NCBI GenBank assembly: GCA_024641025.1
Contig: JAHEDW010000005.1
Location: 1 to 58,230 of the forward strand
Direction: 5' to 3'
Source of the DNA: Gallionella sp.
Lineage (GTDB): Bacteria; Pseudomonadota; Gammaproteobacteria; Burkholderiales; Gallionellaceae
DNA length: 58,230 bases
Each line of letters starts with the position of its first letter. Position 1 is the stretch's first letter. This document shows positions 24,694 to 40,680 of the stretch, one piece after another. The position numbers were made by a program, and so were the translations under genes. The notes beneath the pieces are model-generated. The model saw only the letters and a list, made by a program, of their open reading frames with translations, searched no databases and was not told where the DNA came from.

Positions 24694-24722
24694 AAAAGGA
24701 CACCAAATGGTGTCCTTTTTTT
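24694..24722 (+). terminator. Intrinsic terminator after the parvulin gene
   Basis: AAAAGGACACCA (24694-24705) pairs with TGGTGTCCTTTT (24708-24719), and the T-run continues to 24722. It ends the yciB-bolA-PPIase transcript and isolates the next operon. Confidence 0.92.
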
Positions 24723-24898: not shown

Positions 24899-24915
24899 CT
24901 GGCATGAACTATGCT
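24899..24915 (+). promoter_or_regulatory. Sigma-54 (RpoN) promoter of the DUF11 operon
   Basis: CTGGCATGAACTATGCT matches the -24/-12 consensus YTGGCAYGRNNNTTGCW at every fixed position but one (A for the first T of TTGC). The GG and GC doublets are exactly 10 bases apart. Transcription would begin near 24926, which is almost on top of the ATG at 24928 and therefore argues for the downstream TTG start at 25006 for the first gene. Confidence 0.6.
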
Positions 24916-25005
24916 GTATTTTAAGGTATGAGCAAATTTGATGTAAAATCAATCCGTAACCTGACAAACCTCATAATCAATCGAGGTAATATCAGGAAAG
25001 GATTT

Positions 25006-26127
25006 TTGCATGGAAGCCACCTCATAAACTCCCTTAGCCGCTGGCAAACATTGTTGGGCTTTTTACTGCTGATCACTCCCCAGATCAGTTGGTCGGCCGG
25101 CACGCCTGCTGGAACCCCTATCCGTAACACCGCCACACTTTCATATTCGCTTGGCACTTCGCTGCAAGCTGATATTCCTGCCACTTCAATGACTTTTTTA
25201 GTTGATGAAAAGATCAACCTGACGGTGGTCGGAGGCGTCACCACGAATGTACTTCCCGGCTCTTTTAATCAAGCAACCCCCTTTGCCGTAACCAACAATG
25301 CCAACAGCACGCTGGACTTCGCATTGTCTGTGACTGAAATCATAGGTGGTGACCAGTTTGATCCCAACACGTGTATTGCATATGCTGAAAGCGGTACTGC
25401 TACCGGCTATCAGGCAAGCCAGGACACAGCAACTTTCCTAGATGAGTTGGCACCCGATGCTACTGCGACGGTTTACGCAGTATGCGACATCCCTGCTGCT
25501 GCAAATTTCGAAACAGGTATGGTGGGTTTGACAGCAACAGCACGGGGCGATTTCACAGGGCCGAATGGAACATACGCTGCAACAGCAGGCACTTTGGGCG
25601 CCGTCATAACACCGACCACGAGTACCGATACGCCTGGATCCGTGGACATCGTATTTGCTGACGTTGCGGGCAGTGAAGATATCACTAGCGATGCAAAGCA
25701 CTCAGCCCGTAACACCTATTTGATTGCAGGTTCTGCTTTGTCATTGACCAAAACCGTAGCGAGCGTACTTGATCCTCAGGGTGGCTCAATATTGATGCCC
25801 GGTTCGGTAATAACGTATCAGATCGCAGTCGCTGTCACTGGCACAGGAAACGTATCTAGCCTGATGATCACTGACCCGTTGCCTGCGGAGACTTCCTATG
25901 TCTCGAACAGCATCTTGATCACCTGCAATACAGGCACCTATGCTGGAGGTGGTGCTTGTGGAACAGGCACCATCACGCCACAACCTCCTGTGACGAAAAC
26001 CGATACGAATCTGGATGTGGATTTTGTAGATTTCAACGGCACAACCGCCAATACAGTAACTGTTTCGCTTGGTGATGTTACCGCACCGGCGGATTTTGTT
26101 ATCACGTTTAACGCAGCGATCAAATAA
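25006..26127 (+). CDS. Secreted DUF11-type protein, first gene of the surface operon
   Basis: An exported protein of 373 residues. I chose the TTG at 25006: AGGAAAGGA precedes it, it gives a normal signal peptide (hydrophobic LLGFLLLITP, cleavage near SWSA), and the sigma-54 start point would fall beside the only upstream ATG (24928), which would give 399 residues and an over-long n-region. The mature protein begins GTPAGTPIRNTATLSYS, is rich in Thr/Ala/Val beta-strands, and has a DUF11-like second half (SLTKTVASVLDP, SLMITDPLPAETSYV). Cys pairs occur in NTCIAY...YAVCDIP and ITCNTG...GACGTG. It ends ITFNAAIK. It is clearly paralogous to the 26854-28077 product. Function is unknown; a surface or matrix structural protein is inference. 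Confidence 0.75.
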   Translation: MHGSHLINSLSRWQTLLGFLLLITPQISWSAGTPAGTPIRNTATLSYSLGTSLQADIPATSMTFLVDEKINLTVVGGVTTNVLPGSFNQATPFAVTNNANSTLDFALSVTEIIGGDQFDPNTCIAYAESGTATGYQASQDTATFLDELAPDATATVYAVCDIPAAANFETGMVGLTATARGDFTGPNGTYAATAGTLGAVITPTTSTDTPGSVDIVFADVAGSEDITSDAKHSARNTYLIAGSALSLTKTVASVLDPQGGSILMPGSVITYQIAVAVTGTGNVSSLMITDPLPAETSYVSNSILITCNTGTYAGGGACGTGTITPQPPVTKTDTNLDVDFVDFNGTTANTVTVSLGDVTAPADFVITFNAAIK

Positions 26128-26142
26128 CTGAAGGAGACCACG

Positions 26143-26640
26143 ATGCAAATCACTAGCTCAATATTTACCTCTGTCCTACTGGTTCTGCTAGGCAGCCTTT
26201 CACTTAACGCGCATGCGGCTGATAGTGCCATTAAAGTGACCAGCACCGCACAGATTGAAACCATTGAAGTCGACAAACAAGGCAACAAGAAAATGAAGCT
26301 CACGCCAGTTGAAAAGGCTGTTCCTGGAACCGAGGTGATCTTCACCAACACTTTCGAAAATACTTCCAAAAATCCTGCCAACAACATCGTTATCAACAAC
26401 CCAATACCTCGAGAAAGCGAATACACCGCGGGCAGTGCGTTCGGCAAGAATTGCGAGATCCTCTTTTCTGCTGACGGAGGAAATAAATTTGGACACGCAG
26501 AGGAACTGAAAATCAAGGATATCGAGGGCAAGGAACGTACTGCTTTACCCAAGGAATACACGCATATCCGCTGGACTTACCAAGGACAGCTTGCTCCCGG
26601 AAAAAGTGGGGAAGTCGGATTCCGTGCGGTAATCAAATAA
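26143..26640 (+). CDS. Small secreted DUF11-like single-domain protein
   Basis: A 165-residue exported protein with a clear Sec signal peptide (residues 1-25, cleavage after NAHA). The mature part is about one DUF11 unit: PGTEVIFTNTFENTSKNPANNI, then NNPIPRESEYTAGSAFGKNC, and the final GEVGFRAVIK. AAGGAGA lies seven bases before the ATG, and the gene follows the previous one by 15 bases. It has Lys-rich, more polar strands than its neighbours. It may be a minor subunit, cap or adaptor of the same assembly; this is inference from context. Confidence 0.8.
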   Translation: MQITSSIFTSVLLVLLGSLSLNAHAADSAIKVTSTAQIETIEVDKQGNKKMKLTPVEKAVPGTEVIFTNTFENTSKNPANNIVINNPIPRESEYTAGSAFGKNCEILFSADGGNKFGHAEELKIKDIEGKERTALPKEYTHIRWTYQGQLAPGKSGEVGFRAVIK

Positions 26641-26704
26641 TCAGACAACCATGAACCCTTTATTTTCAAGTTATCCCGGGCGATACCTGATGCCCGAACC
26701 AATG

Positions 26705-26725
26705 ACGGATCCCCCGTGGATCCGT
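26705..26725 (+). other. Stable stem-loop in operon intergenic region
   Basis: ACGGATCC (26705-26712) pairs perfectly with GGATCCGT (26718-26725) around a 5-base loop. A second small stem (CGGGC/GCCCG) occurs around 26676-26697. They lie within the 213-base gap between the second and third DUF11 genes. Only a weak T-rich stretch follows, so partial termination or an mRNA processing or stability element are both possible. Confidence 0.5.
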
Positions 26726-26853
26726 TCTCCGTTTTCTGCGCGGGGATTGACCACGGGTTCAGGTCCTCCTTAAGGCAGAAATTTCTCAGAGTAATTTTAT
26801 GTATTAGTCAGCAATCCAGTTGTTTTTTAGACGTAATTTTTAGGAGAATCAAA

Positions 26854-28077
26854 ATGAAATACATTACGCAAACAAGTAGTCCTCCAAAATCTTTAGCATT
26901 GTTAGTTGGTGCGATGTTGCTGGTTTTGACCTCACAAAGTGCTCTGGCAGTACCGGTAGGAACACCTGTCGGTACCACGATCAGCAACACTGCCACGCTG
27001 GGATATAGTGTTAGCGGCTTTGCACAACCCGACGTCATCTCTGCCGCTGCGACTTTTGTGGTGGACGAGAAGATCAACCTAACGGTAGGAGGCGGTATCA
27101 CAACCGGCGTACCAGCCAATTCAACGGCCCAGGCGACAGCCTTTACGGTTACCAACAACTCCAACAGCCCGTTAGATTTCAGTTTGGCGGTTACCTCAGC
27201 CCTAGCAGGTGACAACTTCGATCCGAGCGCGTGCACTGCCTTTGTTGACGGAAACGCCAACGGCACCTACGAGTCAGGTACCGATACAGCTACCTTCGTT
27301 GACGAGCTGCCATCCGGAGATACAGCGACAGTATTTGCTGTTTGCACCATTCCTGTTGGAACTAACAGTCAAACCGGATTAGTCGGCTTGACCGCAACGG
27401 CCAGGGGTAGTTTCAATGCTACGGGTTACATCGCAACCGCAGCGTCTTTGAATGCCACCACCCCTGCAGAAACGACAGCATCCGGAACGACCGTAGGTAT
27501 CGTACTAGCTGACGTTGCTGGTACCGAAGCTGGTGATGGGTTACGCGATGCTAGACATTCTGGGCGTAATACCTACTCAATCTTCACTGCTGCTTTGACT
27601 GTCACCAAGTCAGCCGTGCTGCTCTGTGATCCATTTAATGGCGTGGTCAACATGAAGAACATCCCGGGCGCGATGACCCAATGGTCGGTCACGGTTAGTA
27701 ATGGAGCGGGGGGTTCTGCAGCTACACTGACAACCATAAGTGATGCGATCTCCGCTACGCTGGCGATTGACCCAGGACAGGTTGGCAGTCTGACTGCTCC
27801 GACCAATGCTGCAACCTGCGTAGCGGGACCTGGTCCACTGGGCTTTAGGGTGACGGTCCCAGTCGCGCGGGTATTGGGTGGATCTGCGGCAGGATCATCA
27901 ACCTCCAGCTTTTTCACCACCACTGCAACAGTTGACGGTGTGGATTTTTCAAGTCCAAACGTCACGGCCACGTTTGCCGCCATCCTGCCTGTTGATGGTG
28001 CTACCGGCCATGCTACGGCAGGACTGTTGAATCCGGGTGAAAGCGTGACGTTAATCTTCAATACCATAGTCCAGTAA
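26854..28077 (+). CDS. Secreted DUF11-type protein, paralogue of the first operon gene
   Basis: A 407-residue exported protein. The start MKYITQTSSPPKSLALLVG has TAGGAGA ahead of it; the frame is open further upstream to 26716, but that part looks non-coding. The signal peptide ends near SALA, and the mature chain starts VPVGTPVGTTISNTATLGYS. It shares blocks in order with the 25006 protein: VDEKINLTV, LDFSLAV, GDNFDPSACTAF, DTATFVDELP, TATVFAVC, VGLTATARG, DVAGTE and DARHSGRNTYS. The second half is DUF11-like. It ends VTLIFNTIVQ. The two paralogues probably arose by tandem duplication and diverged in their second halves. Role unknown. Confidence 0.82.
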   Translation: MKYITQTSSPPKSLALLVGAMLLVLTSQSALAVPVGTPVGTTISNTATLGYSVSGFAQPDVISAAATFVVDEKINLTVGGGITTGVPANSTAQATAFTVTNNSNSPLDFSLAVTSALAGDNFDPSACTAFVDGNANGTYESGTDTATFVDELPSGDTATVFAVCTIPVGTNSQTGLVGLTATARGSFNATGYIATAASLNATTPAETTASGTTVGIVLADVAGTEAGDGLRDARHSGRNTYSIFTAALTVTKSAVLLCDPFNGVVNMKNIPGAMTQWSVTVSNGAGGSAATLTTISDAISATLAIDPGQVGSLTAPTNAATCVAGPGPLGFRVTVPVARVLGGSAAGSSTSSFFTTTATVDGVDFSSPNVTATFAAILPVDGATGHATAGLLNPGESVTLIFNTIVQ

Positions 28078-28085
28078 CTAGGCCT

Positions 28086-31000
28086 ATGGCGCAATTAGCC
28101 AACACATTGCGTCACCTCCGTCCGGTTCGCCGGGTGGATGGCGTACTTTTGCGTGTGTTGCCCCGGCTTGCCGGGGCAGCCCGCTTTTTTGTGGGTGCGA
28201 ATCGCGCTTACAAAAAAGCGTTGCTTGCGCTTTCACTCTGCCTATTGTCTGCTTCTGCATGGTCGGCTACTCCGCCTAACACCCCGATCAGCAACACCGC
28301 GACCGCGAGTTACAGTATCGGCGCGGCCAATCTTACCAACACAAGTTCCGTTAGCATAAGCACCACTGCCTGTATTGCCGTCGCGGTGAAAGTTGAACTT
28401 CTGCAATACAATCCTTCCGCAACCTTAACAGTTCAGGTAGAAACAGGCGAATATTCAACAAATGGGGTAGGCGCCTTTACCGCTTTAGACAACCCGATTC
28501 AGGTAGCAGGTGCACCTACATTGTTGCCTGCCAACCTGCTGCTCGCCCCACTCAAGGATAACCTCGGGAATACCACTTCTGCTTACGCACGCAACGAACC
28601 AATCTTTGTGCGAGTTACCAGCTATGATTCGAATAATGATTCAGGCCTGGCTGAAACTGTCCTGGTGACATTGACCACCAGCGGTGGCGACAGCGAGTTG
28701 GTACGTTTGACTGAAAGCGGTTTATCCACAGGCGTATTTGTTGGCGCAGTTCCTTCAAACATCGGCGTCGCCCCTAACACCAATGATGGCGCCATCACCG
28801 CTTCAGCTCATAACGAAACAATATCGGCTTTTTACAGTCACTCTGACTGCGTTTCCGGGACGATCACCAGCACTAGCAGTGCGCTGATTGATCCTTTCGG
28901 CATCGTATTTGATTCAGTCACCGGTGTGGCGGTGAACGGTGCAACAGTCAGGCTGGTCAATACGCTGACAGGTCTTGATGCTGCGGTAATGTGTGATGAT
29001 GGATTTACACCGCTTTCCCAACCGATTCTATCCGGCTCGCCAACAACTTGCGATGCAACGATGATTCCTGGTGGATACCGCTTCCCACTAGTAGCATCTG
29101 GCAACTACCAGCTCGTCGTCACGCCCCCGGCAGGTAAGGCATTTCCCTCTTCTGTGCCGTCAGCAAGCCTACCAGCCAGTATCGGCACTCCGGCAACTGT
29201 TCCGGTCATATTGGGCAATCCGACACCGATACCAGGGGGCTCTTACGGTGGAGTGTTCACACTGTGGGTTTCGGCTTTAAAAATCGATATTCCGTTGGAT
29301 TCAGGCTCAACAACCATGACAATCCAGAAAACTGTCAATAAAGCCGTGGTCGGTACCGGTGATTTTGTGCCTTATACCCTCTCAATAATCAACAATGACC
29401 CTCTGCCATTGGTCAGTGCACAAGTTGCCGACCATCTTCCGCCAGGTTTTCGTTACCAAAAAGGTTCAACACGTTTGGATGGTGTGGCCATACCTGACCC
29501 ACTGATCTCTGCCGACGCACGCACTCTCACCTTCAGCCTTAACATCCCGGCTTCGGGTACAGCGAATGTTCAATATGTACTTGAAGTGACCCCAAGTGCA
29601 CACACCGGCATCGCTGAGAACACTGTTTCGGCCACTGGCGGCCTTACTTCTAACACCGCGCACGCCAGCGTAGTTGTGACAGAAGATCTATATCGCAACA
29701 AATCCATCCTGATCGGTCGGGTGATCGATGGTTCGTGCGACGACAACGTGGATAACGACATCTTAGGACTAGCGAATGCGCGTATCGTACTGGAAAACGG
29801 CTCATATGTACTGACCGACCAGGAAGGCCGCTGGCACATTGACAACCTGCGCGCCGGTACACACGTGGTGCAACTGGACCTTGATTCATTACCCAAAGAT
29901 TATGAAGTAGTCGCATGTGAAGAGAACAGCCGCTTTGCCGGACGCACCTATTCGCAATTCGTCAATCTGCATGGCGGCACCATGTGGCGAGCAGATTTTC
30001 ATGTTCAGAAGAGAGTACCTGAAGCTGTCCGGATCGTTCAGACATTGGCTGCGCAACCGGTGAGTGACAACACTCTTGTGTCATTATCACTGTCAAGCAA
30101 CGCAGTTGTGACTGGCTATTCGGCAACGGTGATGTTGCCGGAATTCGCAAAATATGTGCCTGGAAGCGCAAAGCTGAATGGAGCTCCAATCGCCGACCCA
30201 GATCGAGTGGATCAAACGCTGACCTTCCGCAGTTTGGCGCGACCAACACAATGGCAAGACCAATACTCATTCACAGTCGCAGATTTACCCCCCGATTCGA
30301 CGATCAAATCGCTGGTGCGATTCACCCCACCGGGACAAGCGGCAAAGAACCTTCCCATGGCACAGATCAATTTGAAGAATCACGCGCCCGCTAGCGAACA
30401 AACATCTGCCATCGTACCAGTTATGCAAGCAGACCTTCGCCCGCCAAAAACACCTCAGGATGACGACTTGACCCATCTAGTGGAGACACTTCCTTACGAT
30501 GCAGCTTGGTTATCAACCGCGTCGCCCGGTGCCGAATGGCTTCATCCACTGGAGTCATTTCTTCCAGCGCTGCCAGTTATCAAGGCTGCGGTAAAGCATT
30601 CTCCTGGCCAGTCCGTCAAACTTAAACTGAACAGTGAAGAAGTCAGCCCGCTGTATTTTGACGGGACGCAGACTAATGCAGCCGGTACCGTTTCACTTGC
30701 ATCTTGGAGTGGAATCCACCTCCAGGACGGAGACAACTTGCTTGAAATGATTGTTACTGACGCTTCAGGTAAGGAGTTATTACACCAGAGCCGTAATGTC
30801 CGTTACACATTGACACCTGACCGGGTCGAGTTCGTCCCAGAGCTTTCCCGTCTGATCGCTGACGGCAAGACCCGGCCAATTATCGCGGTACGTTTCCTCG
30901 ACAAGGATGGCTACAAAATGCGCCGCGGCATCAACGGCGAATTCACGTTGAATGATCCGTATCGCTCCTATGATCGACGCGAAGGCATAGACCGCGAACC

Positions 31001-33635
31001 ACTGGCCGGGCGCATCGGAGGAAAGCCGCGCTATGAAGTGAAAACCGAAGGTCTGGCGATGATCGAGTTGGAACCAACCACACAGACCGGCGAAGCTATC
31101 CTGAATTTCCAGTTCGATGACATGCGCAAGCAGGAAGTGCGCGCCTGGCTCGAGCCCGGCCAGCGCGACTGGATTCTGGTTGGTTTCGGTGAAGGTACGC
31201 TAGGACACAAGACCTTGTCAGGCAATATCCAGGGCCTCAGGGATGCCGGTGCCGACCAGCAATTATTCGAAGATGACAAGCTCGCGTTCTATGCCAAAGG
31301 CAGCATCCGCGGCGACTATCTGCTGACCATCGCTTATGACACTGCCAAGGAGACCGGCAACAACGTGCTCAAGCAAGCGGTAGACCCTACTCAGTATTAC
31401 ACACTGTATGCCGATGCAACCCAGGCAAACTTTGACGCAGCCAGCACAAGTCGCCTTTATGTAAAGCTGGAACGCAAACAGTTCTACGCGATGTTCGGAG
31501 ACTTCGACACGGGTCTGACCATCACCGAACTGTCACGCTACAGCAGGACCCTTAATGGTGTAAAGAGTGAATACAATGGTGAGAAGGTGGGCTATAACGC
31601 GTTTGCGAGTATCACTGCACAGGCTTATATCAAGGACGAAATTCCTGGCAACGGCACCTCAGGCGTGTACAAACTGTCTCGCGGCAACCTGGTGATCAAC
31701 TCCGACAAAGTACGCATCGAGACCCGCGACCGCTTCCAGTCACAAAATGTCGTCAGCATCCAGTCCCTGACGCGATATCTTGACTACGACATAGACTACA
31801 ACAATGGTGCACTGACCTTCCGTGAACCGATCACCTCTCGTGACGCCAATTTCAACCCGAATTACATCGTCGCTGAATATGAATCGGCTGATCCAACCGA
31901 CGAGAAGGCGACCTTCGGCGGACGCGGTAGTTACAAGCCGACCAGGGATCTCGAGATTGGTGCGACTGTTGTACATGAAGGTACAGTGGGCGCTACTGGC
32001 AACCTGAAAGGCGTTGATGCGTCCCTCCAACTGGATGACGGAACCAAGCTGCGTGCTGAAGTTGCAGCAACCGACCGAGATCTTGCCAGCGTTGCCTCTA
32101 GTGGCAGTGCATGGCTAGGCGAAATGACACACCACGAGGAACGATGGGATGGCAAAGCCTATATACGTGAGCAGGACGGCAACTTCGGCATGGGACAACA
32201 AGCCGTATCAGAAATGGCCACACGTAAATTCGGTTTGGATGGCCGCTATAAACTATCCAGGTTGACACAGCTGCAAGGACAGGCATATCAACAGGAAGAC
32301 ATGACCAGCGGTTGGCAAAATAGTGTGGTTGAAGGTCGCGTTGACAATGTCGTCAGCAATGCACTGAGTGCTTATTACGGCGCCCGCACATCTCAAGACA
32401 AGAGTAGCGCAGGCAACTTCCAAAGCAATCAGCTACTCGGCGGCGCAGCTTATACTTTGATGGACAAGCGGCTCTCGCTGCACGGTTCAGCTGAGGTCAG
32501 CAGTGGTAATGCTGGCAGCAGCACGATGCCGGATCGCCTGATAATGGGTGCTGACTACAAGGTGACACAGCAAAGCAAGATCTTCGCAGAACAGGAATTC
32601 GCTCGCGGCGAACTGATAAGTGCCAATACTACCCGGGCGGGGATACGCACCCAGCCATGGACGGGTAACGAGATGGCAGCGTCAGTAGGCAGCAATCACA
32701 ACAACGATGCTGAGCGCCTGTATTCAAACCTCGGCATGGTGCAACGCTGGCAGATCGACAAACACTGGCAGACCAACTTCAGCCTTGACCGTACACAGAC
32801 GCTACACAACACGGCTCAAGGAATAAACATCAACACCCCGTTGCCATCAGGCTCAGGTGGAATTTCACAGCTACCATCAGAATCAGCTGATTACACTGCC
32901 GTTTCCATCAGCCTGGCATACCACGACAAGTTGTGGAGCAGCGACGGTCGAATCGAAGTGCGCAATTCCAGCCTGAATACACAGCGAAATCTTCAGCTCG
33001 GCCTGCAACGGCTGCTGGATAGCGGACGCTCCCTGGCTGCTGGATATTCACTGCGCAAGGCTGACAACATGACCAGCAAAACAATTGGCAGCGACCTGCG
33101 CTTCTCGTACGCACATCGCCCGAATGATAGCAAATGGGTGTGGCTCGACCGTGCCGACTATATCACCCAGATCAGCCAAACCACGATTTCATCAATCAAA
33201 GGCGCCAAGCTGGTTAATAACATCAATGCCAACTATATGCCTAGCCGCCGCACGCAGATTTCACTGCAATACGGTGCGAAATATGTATTCGACCGCATCG
33301 ATGGCACCGACTACAAAGGATACACCGACCTGATTGGAGCGGAAGCCCGCCACGACCTGACAAATCGTTGGGATGTCGGCGTTTTCGGTTCGTTGATGCG
33401 CTCGCTGAATTCCGGTGTACGTAGCTACGGTTTGGGCGCATCAGTCGGTTACAAGTTGGTCGACAATATGTGGATTTCCGCTGGGTACAACGTTCTCGGC
33501 ATGGATGACCGTGACTTCTCATCAGCCTCATACCGCGCACAAGGGCCTTACATAACATTGAGAATCAAGGTTGATCAGGACACCTTCGGCTTGAACAAGG
33601 GTAGTGATATAACCCGACCGATGAATCACGAGTGA
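28086..33635 (+). CDS. Giant outer-membrane protein: DUF11 and SdrD/CNA-B-like domains plus C-terminal beta-barrel
   Basis: An 1849-residue exported protein. Residues 1-60 are an odd Arg-rich leader before a typical signal core (ALLALSLCLLSASAWSA); a GTG at 28191 would give a normal signal peptide. The mature start is TPPNTPISNTATASYS. A DUF11 domain lies at about 409-532, then an SdrD/CNA-B-like domain (about 539-620: ILIGRVIDGSCDDNVDND, GSYVLTDQEGRWHIDNLRAG) and a second DUF11-like domain (about 640-745). A beta-rich region with PDRVEFVPELSRLIADGKTRP (Ig-like) follows. From about 1020 to the end there is a long run of alternating strands with many aromatic residues (DYDIDYNNGALTFREPI, then repeated amphipathic strands), consistent with a large outer-membrane barrel. 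It sits centrally in the operon. It could be an exporter, anchor or receptor; the sequence does not decide. Confidence 0.82.
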   Translation: MAQLANTLRHLRPVRRVDGVLLRVLPRLAGAARFFVGANRAYKKALLALSLCLLSASAWSATPPNTPISNTATASYSIGAANLTNTSSVSISTTACIAVAVKVELLQYNPSATLTVQVETGEYSTNGVGAFTALDNPIQVAGAPTLLPANLLLAPLKDNLGNTTSAYARNEPIFVRVTSYDSNNDSGLAETVLVTLTTSGGDSELVRLTESGLSTGVFVGAVPSNIGVAPNTNDGAITASAHNETISAFYSHSDCVSGTITSTSSALIDPFGIVFDSVTGVAVNGATVRLVNTLTGLDAAVMCDDGFTPLSQPILSGSPTTCDATMIPGGYRFPLVASGNYQLVVTPPAGKAFPSSVPSASLPASIGTPATVPVILGNPTPIPGGSYGGVFTLWVSALKIDIPLDSGSTTMTIQKTVNKAVVGTGDFVPYTLSIINNDPLPLVSAQVADHLPPGFRYQKGSTRLDGVAIPDPLISADARTLTFSLNIPASGTANVQYVLEVTPSAHTGIAENTVSATGGLTSNTAHASVVVTEDLYRNKSILIGRVIDGSCDDNVDNDILGLANARIVLENGSYVLTDQEGRWHIDNLRAGTHVVQLDLDSLPKDYEVVACEENSRFAGRTYSQFVNLHGGTMWRADFHVQKRVPEAVRIVQTLAAQPVSDNTLVSLSLSSNAVVTGYSATVMLPEFAKYVPGSAKLNGAPIADPDRVDQTLTFRSLARPTQWQDQYSFTVADLPPDSTIKSLVRFTPPGQAAKNLPMAQINLKNHAPASEQTSAIVPVMQADLRPPKTPQDDDLTHLVETLPYDAAWLSTASPGAEWLHPLESFLPALPVIKAAVKHSPGQSVKLKLNSEEVSPLYFDGTQTNAAGTVSLASWSGIHLQDGDNLLEMIVTDASGKELLHQSRNVRYTLTPDRVEFVPELSRLIADGKTRPIIAVRFLDKDGYKMRRGINGEFTLNDPYRSYDRREGIDREPLAGRIGGKPRYEVKTEGLAMIELEPTTQTGEAILNFQFDDMRKQEVRAWLEPGQRDWILVGFGEGTLGHKTLSGNIQGLRDAGADQQLFEDDKLAFYAKGSIRGDYLLTIAYDTAKETGNNVLKQAVDPTQYYTLYADATQANFDAASTSRLYVKLERKQFYAMFGDFDTGLTITELSRYSRTLNGVKSEYNGEKVGYNAFASITAQAYIKDEIPGNGTSGVYKLSRGNLVINSDKVRIETRDRFQSQNVVSIQSLTRYLDYDIDYNNGALTFREPITSRDANFNPNYIVAEYESADPTDEKATFGGRGSYKPTRDLEIGATVVHEGTVGATGNLKGVDASLQLDDGTKLRAEVAATDRDLASVASSGSAWLGEMTHHEERWDGKAYIREQDGNFGMGQQAVSEMATRKFGLDGRYKLSRLTQLQGQAYQQEDMTSGWQNSVVEGRVDNVVSNALSAYYGARTSQDKSSAGNFQSNQLLGGAAYTLMDKRLSLHGSAEVSSGNAGSSTMPDRLIMGADYKVTQQSKIFAEQEFARGELISANTTRAGIRTQPWTGNEMAASVGSNHNNDAERLYSNLGMVQRWQIDKHWQTNFSLDRTQTLHNTAQGININTPLPSGSGGISQLPSESADYTAVSISLAYHDKLWSSDGRIEVRNSSLNTQRNLQLGLQRLLDSGRSLAAGYSLRKADNMTSKTIGSDLRFSYAHRPNDSKWVWLDRADYITQISQTTISSIKGAKLVNNINANYMPSRRTQISLQYGAKYVFDRIDGTDYKGYTDLIGAEARHDLTNRWDVGVFGSLMRSLNSGVRSYGLGASVGYKLVDNMWISAGYNVLGMDDRDFSSASYRAQGPYITLRIKVDQDTFGLNKGSDITRPMNHE
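28122..28195 (+). other. Cluster of hairpins at the 5' end of the giant outer-membrane protein gene
   Basis: Three stem-loops follow one another: CCGG-TTCG-CCGG (28122-28133), GCCCCGG-CTTG-CCGGGGC (28160-28177), and CCCGC with a T6 loop and GTGGG (28181-28195). The second, followed by six Ts at 28185-28190, resembles an attenuator, although seven bases separate stem and T-run. They fall in the first 37 codons, or in the untranslated leader if the GTG at 28191 is the start. Confidence 0.5.
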
Positions 33636-33637
33636 TA

Positions 33638-36600
33638 ATGAAAAAGATAATGAAAATGCCAGCCAGAAATAGTTTTTATTTTTCGCGCCCCTTGCTTCAG
33701 GTGGCATTGACAGCCTGTATGCTGCTCATCGCGCTGATTGCGTCCGAGGCACAGGCCGCAATCATCGTGACCCGCACTTCCTCACCGGTGTTCTATACCG
33801 ATTCAGGAACTGGCACTGCAACCACTTCGCCTCGGTGTACCTATCTTTCATTCAACATTACCAGCACGACGGCGATCAGCGATGCCTGGGTAACTTTGGG
33901 CAATTTCGGCGGTGCGCCTGCATACCTTTCATTGGGCGGTGGAGATACCGGTGCAGTCCATTTTGGATCGTTTGCTGCCGGCCAGACCAGTCCTGCCTAC
34001 TATTATGTGTGTTCCTCTTACACCGGTGGAGGAATCACTGCGGCGCAGACTTACAACGTCACCACATTTAGCGGCAATCCCTTGAACGGCGGAACCAGTC
34101 TGGGCTTGACGAGTTTCAGCACGACCATAGACGACGGCGTGATTCAGGCAAACTCCAATTCGGTCAATTCGATCTGGGCTGATATCAATCCCAGCGTGCT
34201 GGGTGCCACCACCACGCTGACCGTAGACGGAGACACAGGAACCATAGGTTGTGTAAATCCTCCCTCAGCTTGTTCTAGCGGCGGTGGTGGCACCAAAGGC
34301 CCGCTTACTTTCAATCCGGCTACGTTCACCAACTGGCGAGCAGACTCTTATGAGTTGGTCGCAACCAGCATCGTACTCTCGGTCGGCAACAGTGGAACAT
34401 ATAACAATGTATTGTATATCGACAATGTTGCATCTGGTTCAAACACCCATTATGTTGCCACCTATTATTTCCGGCCGGTTTCCACGACATCTTCGACCAC
34501 CACACTGTCGCCAGTTTCCTACTTGGCTAGCGGCACACAGATCAAGCATACCAGCCTGAATAGTGGTGCCTACGCGGCTGCGGGAGGCTTACTGCCGATC
34601 CTGCCAGCACAGAATGCAGTGCTACTAGCAAAATCCGTCAGTCATGCCACTCTTCCGGCACAGGGCGGTGTAGTGACCTATACGCTCAGCGCCACCAACT
34701 CTGGTGCGTATGACGTCAACCTGGACAGTTTCATCGATAATCTGCCTGCCGGTGCAACATATGTAACGGGTTCTTCGACATACAATGGCGTAAGCATCGC
34801 GAATCCAACCATATCCGGTTCGACCCTGACCTGGTCATCGCTGTTCGACATTCCAGCCGGCACGACACGTACCCTGATCTTCCAAGTCACCCTACCCGCA
34901 ACACCGGGGACTTTCAGCAACACCGCTACGGCGAGAATAGGTTACGCAATCATCGACACCACGCTGTCCACCAGCGATAACGTTCCTCCTACTGCCACCA
35001 CTGTGGTACTGAAGGCTCCTGCAATCGGCAAGGCGTTTTCACCCAGCACCGCATCTGTCAGCGGAATCTCGGCGCTCACATTGACTATCACCAATCCGAA
35101 TGCAACCCATACCTTGAACGGCATCGCAGTGAGCGACACCCTGCCTACCGGACTGACTTTCACCGCTCCTTCAGGTGCAGCAACGACTTGCCCGGGTGCG
35201 ATTCTAAGCGCGGTTGGCACAACGCTTTCAATCAACGGAAGTACACTGAACGCCGGACAGAGTTGCACCGTCTCAGTCAATGTCACATCGGCAGTCGCTG
35301 CAACCTACAACAATATTACCAGCACAGTTTCATCCAGCAACGGCGGCAACGGCGGAACAGCTGCAGCAACAATCACCTTCTCTCCAAAACCAACCATCAG
35401 CAAGTCTTTTTCGGTCGCCACCATGCCGCGAAACGGAACGGCGACACTGACATTCACGATCACCAACAGCACGGCAGCAGCAATCACAGGCGTAACCTTT
35501 GACGACCTTTTCCCACCCGGCTTGGTCACTGCCAATCCACCTGCACTCAGCCCTGCTTCGCCATGTGGCGGAACGCTCAGTTCATGGAACGGCACATCGG
35601 CTAGTGCGTTGAGTGCGACCGGTGGCGATGCCGGAGTGAGGCTGACTGGCGGTGCCATTGCATCGACTGGTGGGACCTGCACCTTCAGTATCAGAGTGAC
35701 ATCCTCCACAGCAGGGATCTATGCAAACACCTCGAGCGGTGTCAATTCGAACGAATCAAGCCCGGCGGGCACTGTCAGCAACACTGCCACTTTGTCGGTG
35801 CTGGCCCCACCAACGGTGTCAAAAGCGTTCTCTCCATCGACAATCGGCAGCGGTCAAACTTCAATCTTGACAATTACTTTGACCAACCCGAATGCAACGC
35901 CAATTAATGGGGCAACCTTCACCGATATTTATCCGGTCAATGTAAACACTGCCGCGATACCAAATGCCTCAACCAGTTGCACATCCGGCACAGTCAATTC
36001 GACCGCGAGCTCGGTCTCCCTGTCAGGAGCAACCATCCCAGCCAGCGGCAGTTGCACGGTCAGAATCAATGTCACATCCAGCGTGATAAATCTGCCGGGT
36101 TACGTCAACACCATTGCAGCAGGCGGGGTGACCACAACCAATGCCGGCAGCAACGCAACCCCCGCATCGGGAACCCTGATCGTCAATGCCACTCCCACCA
36201 TCGCGAAGAGCTTCGCTTTCAATCCGGCAACGGGTTTGGCAACCATGAACATCACAATTACCAACAACGACACAGCGGCCATCACCGGCTTGTCTTTCAC
36301 AGACCTTTTCCCTACAAACTTGGTAACCGACAGCCCACCTTCAGTCACACCTGCAACGCCATGCGGAGCAGGTAGTAGCATCCAGTCATGGGATGGCGCG
36401 ACTGCGGGCACCCTGTCAGCAACTGGGAACGATTTTGGAATCAAACTCACTGCTGGTCAGCTCACAGCTTCAGGCAGCTGCACCTTCAGCATCAACCTTA
36501 CTGCAAATTCCCTAGGCATTTTTAACAATCAGACTTCCGGCGCGACCGGTTCATTTACCGGCACAGGCAACCCGAGCAATATCGCCACTTGGATCGCGCC

Positions 36601-38686
36601 ATCGGTCAGCAAGACTTTTTCACCCAAGATAGTAGGGCCAGGCAATATTAGCAGGCTGGTCATCAGTTTTACCAACCCAAGCCTGACCACAACCCTGACG
36701 GGACTTTCAGTCAACGACACCTATCCTACATCTGCACAACTTCCCGGCGGAGGAACGCTGGCAGCTGCTATTACATCTCCCACTCCGAACGCATCGAATA
36801 CCTGCGGCGGGACAGTAACGGCTACGCTGAACGGGATTTCTCTTTCTGGCGGAACACTGTCGCCAGGCGCGAGTTGCAGCATTGGCGCAGATGTATTGGC
36901 GAGCAACACCACATCGGCTTTATATACCAACACTACTGGAAAAGTCGGCTCTAACCAGGGGATAGGTATCGTCAGCAGTGACTCGCTACTCATTACCACG
37001 AGCCCGACCCTTACCAAGTCGTTCCTGACCAACCCGGTTACCCTCACCGCTGGCACCGCAACCAGCGTGATGCGTATCACAGTAGTAAACAACTCAGGCT
37101 TGAACATCACTGGAGTTTCGTTCAGCGACATTTTCCCGACAAGTCCCGCGCCGATGTCGTTGGCAAGCACAACAGTGATCAACAGCTGTGGCGGCACCAT
37201 TACCGATCTGATTGGCAATCCACTGGCTATCGGCTCAACTGGAATCAAACTGACGGGGGGTGCGATTACTGCCGCGGCCTTGACCTGCACAATCGATGTC
37301 ACAGTCAGGGTCTCGGCAACCGGCAGCTTCAGCAATACAACCAGCGGGGCCCTATCGTCGGTGAATACTATCGTCGGACCAGTCAGCAACACGGCGATCC
37401 TGGTCGCAAACCTACCTGCACCCACCGTTACCAAGACATTTGCCAATAGCGGATTCCAGGTCGACGGCACAAACCGGCTCACCATCACTTTAACTAATCC
37501 GAACACAACTGCCATAACTGGCGTGAACTTCACTGATATCTATCCAGCTAATCTGCAAAATGCAGCAACGCCCAACCTTGCCAACACATGCGCCGGCACT
37601 GCTACAGCAGCAGCAGGATCAGGCACGCTGAGCATCAGCGGCGGCATCATCCCGCCAGCGGGTTCATGTACCATACAGGTTGATTTGACCGCATCAACGG
37701 TTGGCTCGTATACAAATACCTTGCCAATTAATGCTGTTACCTCGTCGAATGCGAATAAAGGTCCTGTGACAGCCGTATCGGCAAGTACCACCGCCTATCT
37801 ACCGCCCTCTTTGACCAAATCGTTTGGGGCAGCCAGTTTGGCCAGTGGAGGCACCACCACCCTTACCTTGGCTTTGACTAATCCCGCCGGTAACCCGGCA
37901 GCGCTTAACTCAATTCGGGTCGACGATACCTTTCCTGCGGGCCTGACGCTGAGAAACACCACGTTCTCCTACACGCCTGCCGCCTGCGGGACAGTCACTA
38001 AAATCACTGGGGCTGCATCTTCATCGGGAGACAATAACATCCGCTTCTCGGTAGTCTCCCTTGCGGCAGGCACAACCTGTCAAGTTTCTGTTAACGTCAC
38101 TTCAACTACGCTGGGCGTGATCACCAACACAACAAATGCACCGATAGCCACTGCTCCAGCTGCTCTCACCGGCATCCCTGCATCGTCTAACCTATCCGTG
38201 ACGACAGGGCCGAGCATCACTTTATTAAAAACGGTTGCCATCTATTCCGACCCCTTAAACGGAACAACAAATCCGAAATTCATTCCTGGCGCAGTTGCGC
38301 AATACACCATTATCGCGAGTAACTCAGGCGGCCCTGCTGACAATAACTCGACTATCATCACCGACCCAATTCCACCCAACACTTCACTATATGTTAGCGA
38401 CATAGGTGGCATTGGCTCAGGGCCGGTACTTTTCTCACAAGGAACCACCTCGAGCACTTTGACCTATATCTTTGGGATAACTCCACCACCCTTGGCCGAC
38501 CCGGCCGATGACATCGATTTCTCGAATAATGGAGGCGCGACCTGGACTGCAATACCGGCAGCAGGCGCAAATGGTTGTGATCCAACCATCACTCATATCA
38601 GAATCAAACCAAAAGGCTCGTTTGCAGGCAATCCCTCCGCTCCCAGCCCGAGCTTTCAGTTATCATTCCGTGTATGCGTAAAATGA
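33638..38686 (+). CDS. Giant secreted protein with about ten tandem DUF11 repeats
   Basis: A 1682-residue exported protein. The start is set at the ATG at 33638 (MKKIMKMPARNS); a GTG at 33632 overlaps the previous stop. The signal peptide (about 1-44) ends near SEAQA. Residues up to about 320 form a unique Gly/Ser/Thr-rich head. Then come about ten DUF11 repeats of 120-140 residues, starting near bases 34605, 35015, 35385, 35805, 36190, 36597, 37002, 37416, 37798 and 38208. Most begin with a K-[AST]-F pattern (GKAFSPST, SKSFSVAT, TKSFGAAS) and contain N-x-T/P plus D-[LIT]-[FY]-P. Repeats 2-9 each hold two Cys about 30-45 residues apart, probably a disulfide. No sortase, lipid or autotransporter anchor is visible; it ends FQLSFRVCVK. 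A long rod-like surface or matrix fibre is the likeliest role (inference). Confidence 0.82.
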   Translation: MKKIMKMPARNSFYFSRPLLQVALTACMLLIALIASEAQAAIIVTRTSSPVFYTDSGTGTATTSPRCTYLSFNITSTTAISDAWVTLGNFGGAPAYLSLGGGDTGAVHFGSFAAGQTSPAYYYVCSSYTGGGITAAQTYNVTTFSGNPLNGGTSLGLTSFSTTIDDGVIQANSNSVNSIWADINPSVLGATTTLTVDGDTGTIGCVNPPSACSSGGGGTKGPLTFNPATFTNWRADSYELVATSIVLSVGNSGTYNNVLYIDNVASGSNTHYVATYYFRPVSTTSSTTTLSPVSYLASGTQIKHTSLNSGAYAAAGGLLPILPAQNAVLLAKSVSHATLPAQGGVVTYTLSATNSGAYDVNLDSFIDNLPAGATYVTGSSTYNGVSIANPTISGSTLTWSSLFDIPAGTTRTLIFQVTLPATPGTFSNTATARIGYAIIDTTLSTSDNVPPTATTVVLKAPAIGKAFSPSTASVSGISALTLTITNPNATHTLNGIAVSDTLPTGLTFTAPSGAATTCPGAILSAVGTTLSINGSTLNAGQSCTVSVNVTSAVAATYNNITSTVSSSNGGNGGTAAATITFSPKPTISKSFSVATMPRNGTATLTFTITNSTAAAITGVTFDDLFPPGLVTANPPALSPASPCGGTLSSWNGTSASALSATGGDAGVRLTGGAIASTGGTCTFSIRVTSSTAGIYANTSSGVNSNESSPAGTVSNTATLSVLAPPTVSKAFSPSTIGSGQTSILTITLTNPNATPINGATFTDIYPVNVNTAAIPNASTSCTSGTVNSTASSVSLSGATIPASGSCTVRINVTSSVINLPGYVNTIAAGGVTTTNAGSNATPASGTLIVNATPTIAKSFAFNPATGLATMNITITNNDTAAITGLSFTDLFPTNLVTDSPPSVTPATPCGAGSSIQSWDGATAGTLSATGNDFGIKLTAGQLTASGSCTFSINLTANSLGIFNNQTSGATGSFTGTGNPSNIATWIAPSVSKTFSPKIVGPGNISRLVISFTNPSLTTTLTGLSVNDTYPTSAQLPGGGTLAAAITSPTPNASNTCGGTVTATLNGISLSGGTLSPGASCSIGADVLASNTTSALYTNTTGKVGSNQGIGIVSSDSLLITTSPTLTKSFLTNPVTLTAGTATSVMRITVVNNSGLNITGVSFSDIFPTSPAPMSLASTTVINSCGGTITDLIGNPLAIGSTGIKLTGGAITAAALTCTIDVTVRVSATGSFSNTTSGALSSVNTIVGPVSNTAILVANLPAPTVTKTFANSGFQVDGTNRLTITLTNPNTTAITGVNFTDIYPANLQNAATPNLANTCAGTATAAAGSGTLSISGGIIPPAGSCTIQVDLTASTVGSYTNTLPINAVTSSNANKGPVTAVSASTTAYLPPSLTKSFGAASLASGGTTTLTLALTNPAGNPAALNSIRVDDTFPAGLTLRNTTFSYTPAACGTVTKITGAASSSGDNNIRFSVVSLAAGTTCQVSVNVTSTTLGVITNTTNAPIATAPAALTGIPASSNLSVTTGPSITLLKTVAIYSDPLNGTTNPKFIPGAVAQYTIIASNSGGPADNNSTIITDPIPPNTSLYVSDIGGIGSGPVLFSQGTTSSTLTYIFGITPPPLADPADDIDFSNNGGATWTAIPAAGANGCDPTITHIRIKPKGSFAGNPSAPSPSFQLSFRVCVK
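34605..38686 (+). repeat. Tandem coding repeats (about ten DUF11 units, 370-420 bp each)
   Basis: Imperfect repeats at the protein level with low DNA identity. Two types alternate. Type A has TNPN followed by a DIYP-like turn (units beginning near 35015, 35805, 36597, 37416). Type B has TNxT or NN followed by a D[LI]FP turn (35385, 36190, 37002). This suggests amplification of a two-domain unit. The first and last units are divergent. Confidence 0.75.
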
Positions 38687-39675
38687 CCGCTTCTAATTTT
38701 GCCAATATGAAAATTGTTATTCTCATGCTTCTGCTGAGTTGCTTGCCTTGTAATGTTACTGTTGCACTGGCTGAGGATGATTTCCAAAAGATTGAAACGT
38801 TGCAAAGACGCGCTGAAAAACTGGTCAGTGAAGGACTGGAGCAATATGACTACCATCTCACGAAAGCTCGTACTTGGCTGGACCTTGCAATGACCGAATC
38901 TTATGACAAGGATGATAGTGGTGTGATCACTGCTGCAACTGAACAAGCAGAGGGATTGCTAGACGCAATGGATAACAGGAAAACCGACATCTCCATGGAC
39001 ACCCCTCACCAAGTCATTGGCAGCGAGGAGGTGCGCCCAGATTTGTGGGAAAAGATTTCCGCACTGAAGATGAACGAAAGATTTTCCTGCGGTCAGCGAC
39101 CCACTGCCCAGGCCGAAGTCTATCTGGTGTGGTCAGGACATGAATATTATGAATCAGGGCAGAGCCATGCGGAATCATACCTGCGTGCAGTTGAAGACCG
39201 GATATATGAAGCTCAAGTGGCAATAAATAATTGCAAGGAACCTACGACTCCTACACCCTTGATGGAAAAGATCACTCTTTCCAGCGATGCATTGTTCGCG
39301 TTCAACAAAGCAACTTTAAATTCGACCGCCATATCCAGTCTCAATGAATTGGCGGAAAAGATAAGCAAGGTGAACATGCTGGAAGAAGTCATGCTGGTAG
39401 GTCACACTGATCGATTGCGCAGTGACGGACATCCCGAGCGCAACCAGTTGCTTTCTGAACAGCGTGCGGAAAGCATCAAACAATTCCTGATCGACAAAGG
39501 CATATCGGCCGATAAGATACATGCCAGCGGTGCAGGATCCGCACAACCGATCGTAGAATGTTCGAGCAAACTCAGTAAGAAAGAACAGATTGTTTGCCTG
39601 CAGCCCAACCGTCGGGTAGAGATTACTTTACGAGGTGGAAATGCAGTGGATGCAAACAAGGGATTCGTGAAATAA
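38683..39675 (+). CDS. OmpA-family protein, first of a tandem pair
   Basis: A 330-residue exported protein. The ATG at 38683 overlaps the stop of the giant DUF11 gene (ATGA), indicating coupling; an ATG at 38674 or 38707 is also possible. The signal peptide ends near VALA. The N-terminal 190 residues are helical (TLQRRAEKLVSEGLEQYDYHLTKARTWLDLA) and resemble periplasmic helical repeats, not the OmpA barrel. An OmpA-like peptidoglycan-binding domain follows (about 215-320): DALFAFNKATL, LVGHTDRLRSDG, RNQLLSEQRAESIK and QPNRRVEI. It should tether the assembly to the cell wall. No beta-barrel is seen. Confidence 0.87.
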   Translation: MTASNFANMKIVILMLLLSCLPCNVTVALAEDDFQKIETLQRRAEKLVSEGLEQYDYHLTKARTWLDLAMTESYDKDDSGVITAATEQAEGLLDAMDNRKTDISMDTPHQVIGSEEVRPDLWEKISALKMNERFSCGQRPTAQAEVYLVWSGHEYYESGQSHAESYLRAVEDRIYEAQVAINNCKEPTTPTPLMEKITLSSDALFAFNKATLNSTAISSLNELAEKISKVNMLEEVMLVGHTDRLRSDGHPERNQLLSEQRAESIKQFLIDKGISADKIHASGAGSAQPIVECSSKLSKKEQIVCLQPNRRVEITLRGGNAVDANKGFVK

Positions 39676-39723
39676 ACCATTCATGGCATCGAATTACCAA
39701 GCGAATATATCCTGTAAGCTACC

Positions 39724-40680
39724 ATGATCAATGGAATATGCTCATTGCTACTAGCTTTCCTGTTGGCTACCCTTGTATCGGCCGCAGGTGCTGGAGAATC
39801 CGCAGGAAAAATGTTCCCGGAGCAGTTACAACAGATCGAATCCTTGCAACGACGCGCCGACAGGTTGGCCTTCGGTGAGCTCGGCCCGAACGACTACTAT
39901 CTTGCCAAGGCGCGCACCTGGTTGGATGTGGCACTAAGCGAATATTACGAAAATGAAGGGACAGACTTCCTTCCTGCAGCCATCGAACAGGCCAAGTCTT
40001 TGCTTGAAAGTCTGGAGAACAAGCAAGCCAATATCACGATGGATACGCCCCAGCAATTACCAGGCAGTGAAGCTGTTCGTCCCGATCTGTGGCACAGAAC
40101 TTCCACATATAAAAACCATGATAAGTTCTTTTGCGGACAGCGTGCCATCGCCGAGGCCGAGGTCCATCTGGTATGGGCCGGACATGAAAAACATGAATCC
40201 AACTGGAGTCATGCCGAATCCTACGCACGCAGTGCGGAAGATTTACTAAATGAAGCAAAGAATTCGATCAACGATTGTGTAGCCAATAAATCAGCTGACG
40301 AGAAGCTCACACTGGCAAGTGACGTGCTGTTCGGCTTTAATGAAGCTGAAGTCACGCCTTCACAGTTCTGGCAACTCAACAGACTCGTTGAGGCCGTCAG
40401 GAAAGTGAAAGAACTTGAAGGTGTCGTACTGGTCGGACATACCGATCGCCTTCGCAGCGATGGTCGTGAAGAACGCAATCAGATACTTTCCGAGCAACGG
40501 GCTAAAAGCATTAAGAAATACCTGGTCACCAAAGGAATCCCTGGAGAAAGCATCCATGCCAGCGGAGTAGGATCCTCCCGCCCGGTTTTAGAGTGTCCAA
40601 AGGATATCAGCAAAGCTAAGCAGATTACTTGCTTGCAGCCAAACCGGCGGGTGGAAATCACATTACGCGGCTCAAGATAG
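39724..40680 (+). CDS. OmpA-family protein, second of a tandem pair
   Basis: A 318-residue exported protein, a clear tandem duplicate of the preceding gene. Shared blocks in order are ESLQRRADRLAF, DYYLAKARTWLDVALSE, TMDTPQQLPGSE, VRPDLWHRT, FCGQRAIAEAEVHLVWAGHE, LVGHTDRLRSDG and RRVEITLRG. The signal peptide (about 1-22) ends near SAAGA. The helical N-terminal part and the C-terminal OmpA domain are both kept, including the Asp and Arg (HTD...EQRAKS) that bind diaminopimelate in this family. It is the last gene of the operon; 48 bases separate it from its twin, and the next gene is on the other strand. Confidence 0.87.
   Translation: MINGICSLLLAFLLATLVSAAGAGESAGKMFPEQLQQIESLQRRADRLAFGELGPNDYYLAKARTWLDVALSEYYENEGTDFLPAAIEQAKSLLESLENKQANITMDTPQQLPGSEAVRPDLWHRTSTYKNHDKFFCGQRAIAEAEVHLVWAGHEKHESNWSHAESYARSAEDLLNEAKNSINDCVANKSADEKLTLASDVLFGFNEAEVTPSQFWQLNRLVEAVRKVKELEGVVLVGHTDRLRSDGREERNQILSEQRAKSIKKYLVTKGIPGESIHASGVGSSRPVLECPKDISKAKQITCLQPNRRVEITLRGSR

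Follow-up and report, generated by a model that had tools for sequence, protein, structure and literature searches.

What do seven consecutive genes of a Gallionella sp., whose products combine secreted DUF11 proteins, a giant outer-membrane protein and two OmpA-domain proteins, build at the cell surface? The genes lie in a 58,230-nucleotide stretch of DNA (contig JAHEDW010000005.1, positions 1 to 58,230; hereafter the window), which is one contig (C77) of a 2.5 Mb genome, and their seven plus-strand open reading frames (ORFs), P1 to P7, fill positions 24928-40680. An initial annotation had seen in them a self-contained assembly for a surface fibre, sheath or adhesin, which was right in direction but missed the mechanism (a split DUF11 domain, a barrel protein that is only a donor and a tip that is only an acceptor) and misjudged the core. 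We consider it likely that the product of the operon is a surface fibre in which each split DUF11 domain is completed by strands donated from a neighbouring subunit (donor-strand complementation), and in which Lys-Asn isopeptide bonds probably form spontaneously across the joints. What can be read directly in the sequences is that the domains are split, how the halves are distributed over the proteins, how the Lys and Asp residues are partitioned, and that the genes keep their order and occur together.

Three of the proteins, P1, P3 and P4, begin right behind the signal peptide with a segment resembling GTxIxNTATxxY, and four, P1, P2, P3 and P5, end in a DUF11-type immunoglobulin-like (Ig) domain that lacks its last strands, with the C-terminus lying on a strand. 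In Ramlibacter paludis, for example, the C-terminal strands of P1, P2, P3 and P5 are VIEFKATVN, VVGFRVVVN, VSVTFQVKIN and FTIAFKVKLN, respectively. Complete internal domains, on the other hand, run uninterrupted from an acceptor-type end into a donor-type start, as in LSFDVTINAG-IPSGTALSNSAD. P1 and P3 carry both a donor and an acceptor, P2 and P5 only an acceptor, and the barrel protein P4 only a donor; the four secreted DUF11 proteins, previously treated as one kind, are therefore not equivalent.

P1 (24928..26127, plus strand like all seven; 399 aa) is a putative link subunit whose donor hairpin (residues 57-90; 25096..25197) carries Asn67, found in 56/65 relatives, and whose acceptor domain (residues 270-399; 25735..26124) ends at strand F and carries Lys275 (65/65) and Asp316 (64/65). 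P2 (26143..26640; 165 aa) is one open DUF11-type domain without a donor, in which Asn replaces the catalytic Asp (INNPIP, 26392-26409). The second link subunit, P3 (26854..28077), has its donor at ~26950-27051 and its open DUF11-type end at ~27592-28074; its ORF would encode 453 aa from a GTG at 26716 (26716-28077), the ATG at 26854 being the likely start. The giant P4 (28086..33635; 1849 aa) combines a donor N-terminus (hairpin residues 61-93; 28266..28364; Asn70 in 19/20 aligned relatives, the remaining one having a gap) with a complete internal DUF11 domain, in which Lys415, Asp449 and Asn512 are present in 20/20 relatives, and a C-terminal barrel. P5 (33632..38686; 1684 aa) is a tip-like giant with a head of its own, a DUF11/DUF7933 stalk, an acceptor end (residues 1526-1684; 38207..38683; Lys in LLKTV and Asp in IITDPIP) and no donor.

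Relatives were collected by a pattern scan of one genome per species, covering 84,980 species, which yielded 343 stretches encoding a relative of the barrel protein; the best 79 of these 343 loci were kept, several of them being genomes G007, G023, G026, G029, G035 and G036 again. The donor, acceptor and residue counts that follow refer to loci L055-L133, with ORFs cut at the 5' end kept outside the donor counts and those cut at the 3' end outside the acceptor counts; the ORF picker missed genes where a longer ORF overlapped them (P2 of L042 and the barrels of L070 and L076, which were recovered separately). When the donor motif G[TS]x[IVL]xNx[AS] was sought in residues 16-130, it was present in 59/91 P1/P3-type and 23/56 barrel proteins (0.9 and 0.2 expected from shuffles), in 0/38 P2, 0/36 P5 and 0/18 OmpA proteins (0.1, 0.2 and 0.02 expected) and in 2/604 other ORFs (0.6 expected). 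With a looser motif the hits for P1/P3, barrel, P2, P5, OmpA and other ORFs rose to 70, 52, 1, 3, 1 and 21, against 13.4, 8.3, 2.4, 4.3, 1.0 and 23 expected. A narrower and poorly designed motif was less discriminating (14/51 P1, 10/40 P3, 12/56 barrel, 2/38 P2, 2/36 P5, 0/18 OmpA and 11/604 other).

In P1 the Pfam DUF11 match stops within the NTVTV segment, and we therefore built a hidden Markov model (HMM) from the internal domains of P5-class and unassigned ORFs of loci L038-L133, trimmed at both ends. According to this model, internal domains continue into the last strands in 63/66 cases in the barrel proteins and in 111/120 cases in P5, the latter being partly training data, and C-terminal domains end at strand F in 59/66 P1/P3 and 23/23 P2 proteins. 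Joining a donor to the P1/P3 acceptors raised the median HMM score by 4.6 for the protein's own donor, 5.9 for the donor of the other link subunit and 6.4 for that of the barrel; on P2 acceptors the changes were +10.9 and +12.7, and on P5 acceptors +4.2 and +2.9. Controls joined to the acceptors in the same way (shuffled donors, N-termini of tip proteins and random N-termini) gave -3.1 to +0.6.

The DUF11 family has been renamed CLIPPER, and the available part of the source describes a crystal structure (9IFR) that has a catalytic Asp and in which an isopeptide bond joins Lys715 to Asn806, the bond in such folds linking the first and the penultimate strand (PMC12617251). In the acceptor ends analyzed here, Lys and Asp are both invariant (51/51 P1, 40/40 P3 and 33/33 P5 for both residues, 124/124 together), and P2 has Asn in place of the catalytic Asp in 37/40 cases. 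The donor Asn is found in 40/40 P3, 53/56 barrel and, by a loose pattern, 47/51 P1 proteins. The Lys and Asp of 9IFR map well onto the conserved Lys and Asp columns of the HMM, the Asp one residue off the published number by our count, and the Asn of 9IFR sits behind strand F in the segment VVNKVTASG, a segment that we read by eye as the donor motif. The donor Asn appears to complete the Lys/Asp triad from another chain, and the joints may seal spontaneously, without a linking enzyme. If the mapping of Asn806 is right, the end domains obtain a full triad only where two chains meet, and P2 is a stand-alone acceptor minus its catalyst.

Scattered genes in relatives would have spoken against a joint system, and we found the reverse: the genes travel together. 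Gene order was assessed in 52 of the 79 loci, using profiles built from the same loci; the other 27 had a cut barrel gene or less than 2.8 kb upstream of it. A P1/P3-type, a P2-type and a further P1/P3-type gene lie directly upstream of the barrel gene in 42/52 loci; the order is partial in 8/52, one such gene is present in 1/52 and none was recognised in 1/52. Gaps to the barrel gene are mostly below 40 bases, and a P5-type gene lies within the retrieved stretch in 32/52 loci, upstream in 10 and downstream in 22. The order occurs in Beta-, Gamma- and Zetaproteobacteria and in Desulfuromonadota, with two partial loci in Nitrospirota, and carriers of the full order include Gallionella, Sideroxydans, Sulfuriferula, Methylotenera, Ramlibacter, Polaromonas, a Zetaproteobacterium, Woeseiaceae, Geobacter and Desulfuromonadales. 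Among cultured carriers of the cluster are Ramlibacter sp. Leaf400 (L076), Ramlibacter paludis XY19 (L070) and Polaromonas sp. CG_9.7 (L080). Among 37 genomes of the same genus, the barrel is present in 7 (one of them a piece in a 60% complete genome), and P2 and the P5 end are found together in 6 of these 7 genomes, whereas 0/30 barrel-less genomes have either. The core is P1-P2-P3-barrel plus the tip gene, and the OmpA proteins are accessory, their genes adjoining the cluster in several Betaproteobacteria and not being recognised in most other loci. As a possible product, the twisted stalk of Gallionella was considered and judged unlikely, given that only these 7/37 genomes have the barrel and that it is also present in Ramlibacter and Polaromonas.

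The cluster also exists in other forms. In the second, a small P2-like protein, a protein of 900-990 aa, the barrel, a P6-like protein and a giant are encoded together (L045, L046, L047 and L049; in L048 the middle gene is uncalled); genomes G029 and G023 each have one cluster of the first form and one of the second, at separate places (L045, L046). In the third, the barrel has a gene of its own, next to that of a giant DUF11/CarboxypepD-type protein (L050-L053); the barrel of L051 follows an OmpA domain, and this suggests a periplasmic location for the part preceding the barrel. The barrel gene of Polaromonas sp. CG9_12 (L105:9809-15438) appears as two overlapping ORFs of 1040 and 876 aa, a frameshift or a sequence error.

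The P5 relatives keep their end domain and swap their heads. Among 15 that were scanned, one has an L-type lectin head (L108:4518-6962; PF18483, E 6.1e-48), two are short tip proteins in which the same acceptor end bears an ice-binding-like head (PF11999) (L067:15133-16344 and L072:18099-19322, the latter on the minus strand and apart from its cluster), and one has fn3 domains (L073); the others have only DUF11-type repeats or no family. By analogy with chaperone-usher pili, for which it is established, this combination of a variable head and a constant end looks like that of a tip adhesin.

How might these parts assemble? From them we infer a fibre, its polarity, its covalent bonds, a role for P2 and a barrel that serves as base or conduit. 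The end domain of P1 or P3, lacking its last beta hairpin, would receive that hairpin from the N-terminus of the next subunit. By the rules of donor and acceptor, a chain starts at P5 or P2, passes through P1/P3 and can terminate only at the barrel. The distal start would be P5, an adhesin with a variable head, an acceptor end and no donor, and at the cell the chain would end in the donor N-terminus of the giant barrel protein, an anchor and perhaps also an exporter of the fibre. With Lys on the first strand and the catalytic Asp supplied by the P1/P3/P5 acceptors and Asn by the P1/P3/barrel donors, a covalent bond could form at each joint with no sortase involved. P2, a lone acceptor without the Asp, might bind donor strands reversibly, serving as a cap or as a placeholder chaperone, and the OmpA proteins, where present, would tether the base to peptidoglycan. 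In its fullest form, which we put forward tentatively and with somewhat less than even confidence, this would be a sortase-free and usher-free diderm pilus with a naturally split isopeptide domain at every joint, running from an interchangeable tip to a giant donor barrel, with the dead acceptor P2 as a reversible cap.

Several observations weigh against a donor-strand fibre of this kind. The Pfam DUF11 model shows no gain from donors (27.1 bits alone vs 22.7-23.8 with donors and controls alike), and with our HMM the alignment crosses the join with shuffled donors too (70-74 of ~90 vs 79-80 for real donors), which leaves the score alone to discriminate. When slices of the 135 C-terminal residues were used, 16/89 P1/P3 and 5/33 P5 matches reached the last-strand columns; the ends of P5 align poorly (4 C-terminal domains were recovered, 3 of them short), so that the open end of P5 rests mainly on our reading of it. 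The structure predictions cover monomers only, and the model of the P4 barrel is poor. A PapD-type chaperone encoded elsewhere in the genome, on contig C80, may help this fibre. P1 and P3 carry both halves, and self-closure is therefore conceivable in principle: each hairpin would complete the open domain of the chain that carries it, the products being circularly permuted proteins, soluble or at the surface, and no polymer; own donors do raise the HMM score. We regard such self-closing monomers as very improbable, however, for the barrel is donor-only and P2 and P5 are acceptor-only, so that these joints must be inter-chain, and the genes share an operon and co-occur. Hardly less improbable in our view is a secretion or surface-layer complex in which P5 and the other DUF11 proteins are exported and displayed by the barrel one by one, as fibrillar adhesins that form no polymer. 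The barrel is large, Foldseek returned SprA, SlpA and LptD among its matches, and P5 alone resembles a fibrillar adhesin with head and stalk; yet the fold matches are weak, and the donor/acceptor partition and the presence of two link-type genes would go unexplained.

The covalent bond calls for more reserve than the fibre. Lys and Asp could be inherited from DUF11 ancestors and form no intermolecular bond, and some DUF11 domains are without an isopeptide bond according to the available part of PMC12617251. Some P1 donors have Ser or Gly instead of Asn, and the Lys position of P2 holds Lys in 21/40 cases by HMM column and V/T/S/A/G/R in 35/38 by a joint alignment. The mapping of the 9IFR Asn806 is likewise unclean: hmmalign places it one column ahead of the donor Asn, one of three MAFFT runs puts it on the donor Asn column (38/40) and two elsewhere, and a profile alignment with 9IFR (E 0.04) is out of register near it. 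Against a purely non-covalent donor-strand fibre stand the invariance of Lys and Asp in all 124 acceptor ends, with P2 alone losing the Asp, and the near-invariance of the donor Asn in P3 and the barrel. We consider the non-covalent fibre a serious but unlikely alternative, and favour donor-strand joints that are probably sealed by isopeptide bonds.

Chaperone-usher pili are built from subunits with an N-terminal donor strand and an incomplete C-terminal Ig domain, carry a donor-less tip adhesin with a variable head, and have an outer-membrane base. Sequence statistics point to the same N-terminal donor, incomplete C-terminal Ig domain and donor-less tip here, but the subunits are DUF11 proteins, the donor has two strands, the far larger barrel would itself donate a strand, and the joints are possibly covalent. 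A Pfam scan (E up to 0.1) of the seven operon proteins and three neighbours found no usher or PapD family; an ordinary usher and a PapD-type chaperone (PapD_N) are matched away from the operon in the same genome (C80:14857-17701). The proposed system works like a chaperone-usher pilus yet belongs elsewhere, since no usher or chaperone family is present in the operon. SpyTag/SpyCatcher is a laboratory-made split Ig-like (CnaB-like) isopeptide domain that re-joins covalently, whereas the split domain here, if our reading holds, is natural, CnaA-like and a polymer joint. SprA of type 9 secretion is, like P4, a giant outer-membrane barrel, but with 7-8% identity and a low TM-score the likeness is a weak fold match among many barrels. 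The C-termini of P1, P2, P3 and P5 end on a strand and have no sorting signal of the sortase-pilus kind, and by eye no cysteine, such as the lipobox cysteine of type 5 pili, is found where the signal peptides of P1 and P3 end (the protease that drives strand exchange in those pili was not looked for).

Covalent donor-strand joints have a precedent in the archaeal threads of Sulfolobus. As far as the available part of the source describes them, Saci_0406 forms a donor-strand chain with apparent inter-subunit isopeptide bonds, linking the N-terminal Asp24 with Asn57 of a subunit two positions along, and a cap lacks one half of the joint (PMC9715654). Compared by that description, the threads share the joint proposed here but are archaeal, with no outer membrane and with another bond and fold, not Lys-Asn in a split DUF11 domain. 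DUF11 (CLIPPER) fibrillar adhesins and grappling-hook filaments share the family, the isopeptide residues and the use as a stalk; in the parts of those sources available, however, DUF11 is complete within one chain, whereas here the end domain is split between chains (PMC12617251, PMC13319060). P5 has no anchor and ends in an acceptor domain, and does not combine head, stalk and anchor on one chain as a DUF11 fibrillar adhesin does. In the library searched, which does not extend to bioRxiv and most subscription journals, no paper was found that links DUF11 or TIGR01451 with a donor-strand fibre. If our reading is correct, the operon represents a widespread and undescribed kind of fibre on bacterial surfaces, one whose joints seal themselves. 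Many proteins labelled just 'DUF11 domain-containing' or 'TIGR01451 repeat' would thereby acquire a function, and natural split-domain ligation pairs would become available. Such a fibre also raises the question of what stops a fibre with ready reactive ends from polymerising in the periplasm, to which P2 may be the answer.

The family assignments of the initial annotation largely stand. Signal peptides can be seen by eye in all seven products. DUF11-type repeats are matched above the NCBIfam cut-off in P1, P2, P4 and P5, and above the Pfam cut-off only in P4 and P5, but P3, also listed as DUF11-type, has no family match in the Pfam and NCBIfam scans. P4 has in addition a CarboxypepD_reg match slightly under the cut-off and a weak SdrD_B match. 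Its long C-terminal barrel (residues 1258-1827; 31857..33566), with ~32 long strands in a low-confidence model (pTM 0.36), is supported as an outer-membrane barrel by structure prediction and fold search. No PDB relative of P4 was found by sequence, P5 gave a chance PDB match only, and Foldseek with P1 returned generic Ig folds only; the named relatives of the barrel protein are mostly from Gallionella and its kin. P6 (38674..39675; 333 aa) and P7 (39724..40680; 318 aa) both match OmpA, as had been claimed, but would be accessory tethers and not core; they are tandem paralogues (38674-40680) sharing a conserved helical N-terminal part, relatives of which adjoin barrels in L047 and L053 without an OmpA match.

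The tight operon layout described earlier is confirmed, with gaps of 15, 213 (up to the ATG at 26854) and 8 bases, overlaps of 4 and 13, and then a gap of 48, as is the strand switch downstream, where a minus-strand phosphatase gene lies from 40746. Of the proposed signals, an RpoN-like -24/-12 site (pattern TGGCA[CT]N5[AT]TGC) is present at 24900..24914 on the plus strand, 28 bases upstream of the P1 ORF start, but the pattern scan found it 54-72 bases upstream of the first gene in just 4/49 relatives listed (L038 and L061 from one genome, L055 and L066; three genomes) and not near that gene in the other 45. The P1 start at 24928 is only 28 bases past the start of this site, and later in-frame candidates are the TTG codons 27, 42 and 43 (24928-25056). 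An inverted repeat leading into a T run can be read at 24694-24722, behind the upstream peptidyl-prolyl isomerase gene, but the 'strong terminator' seen there fares less well in a terminator scan, in which sites are no commoner than in shuffles (16 vs 16.8) and this repeat is listed on the other strand. The SurA-like isomerase itself was rejected as a core part, not being found beside the cluster in genomes G029 and G023. In Gammaproteobacteria, the recurrent genes downstream of the cluster look, by eye, like housekeeping genes (helicase, TsaB-, MutL- and MiaA-like).

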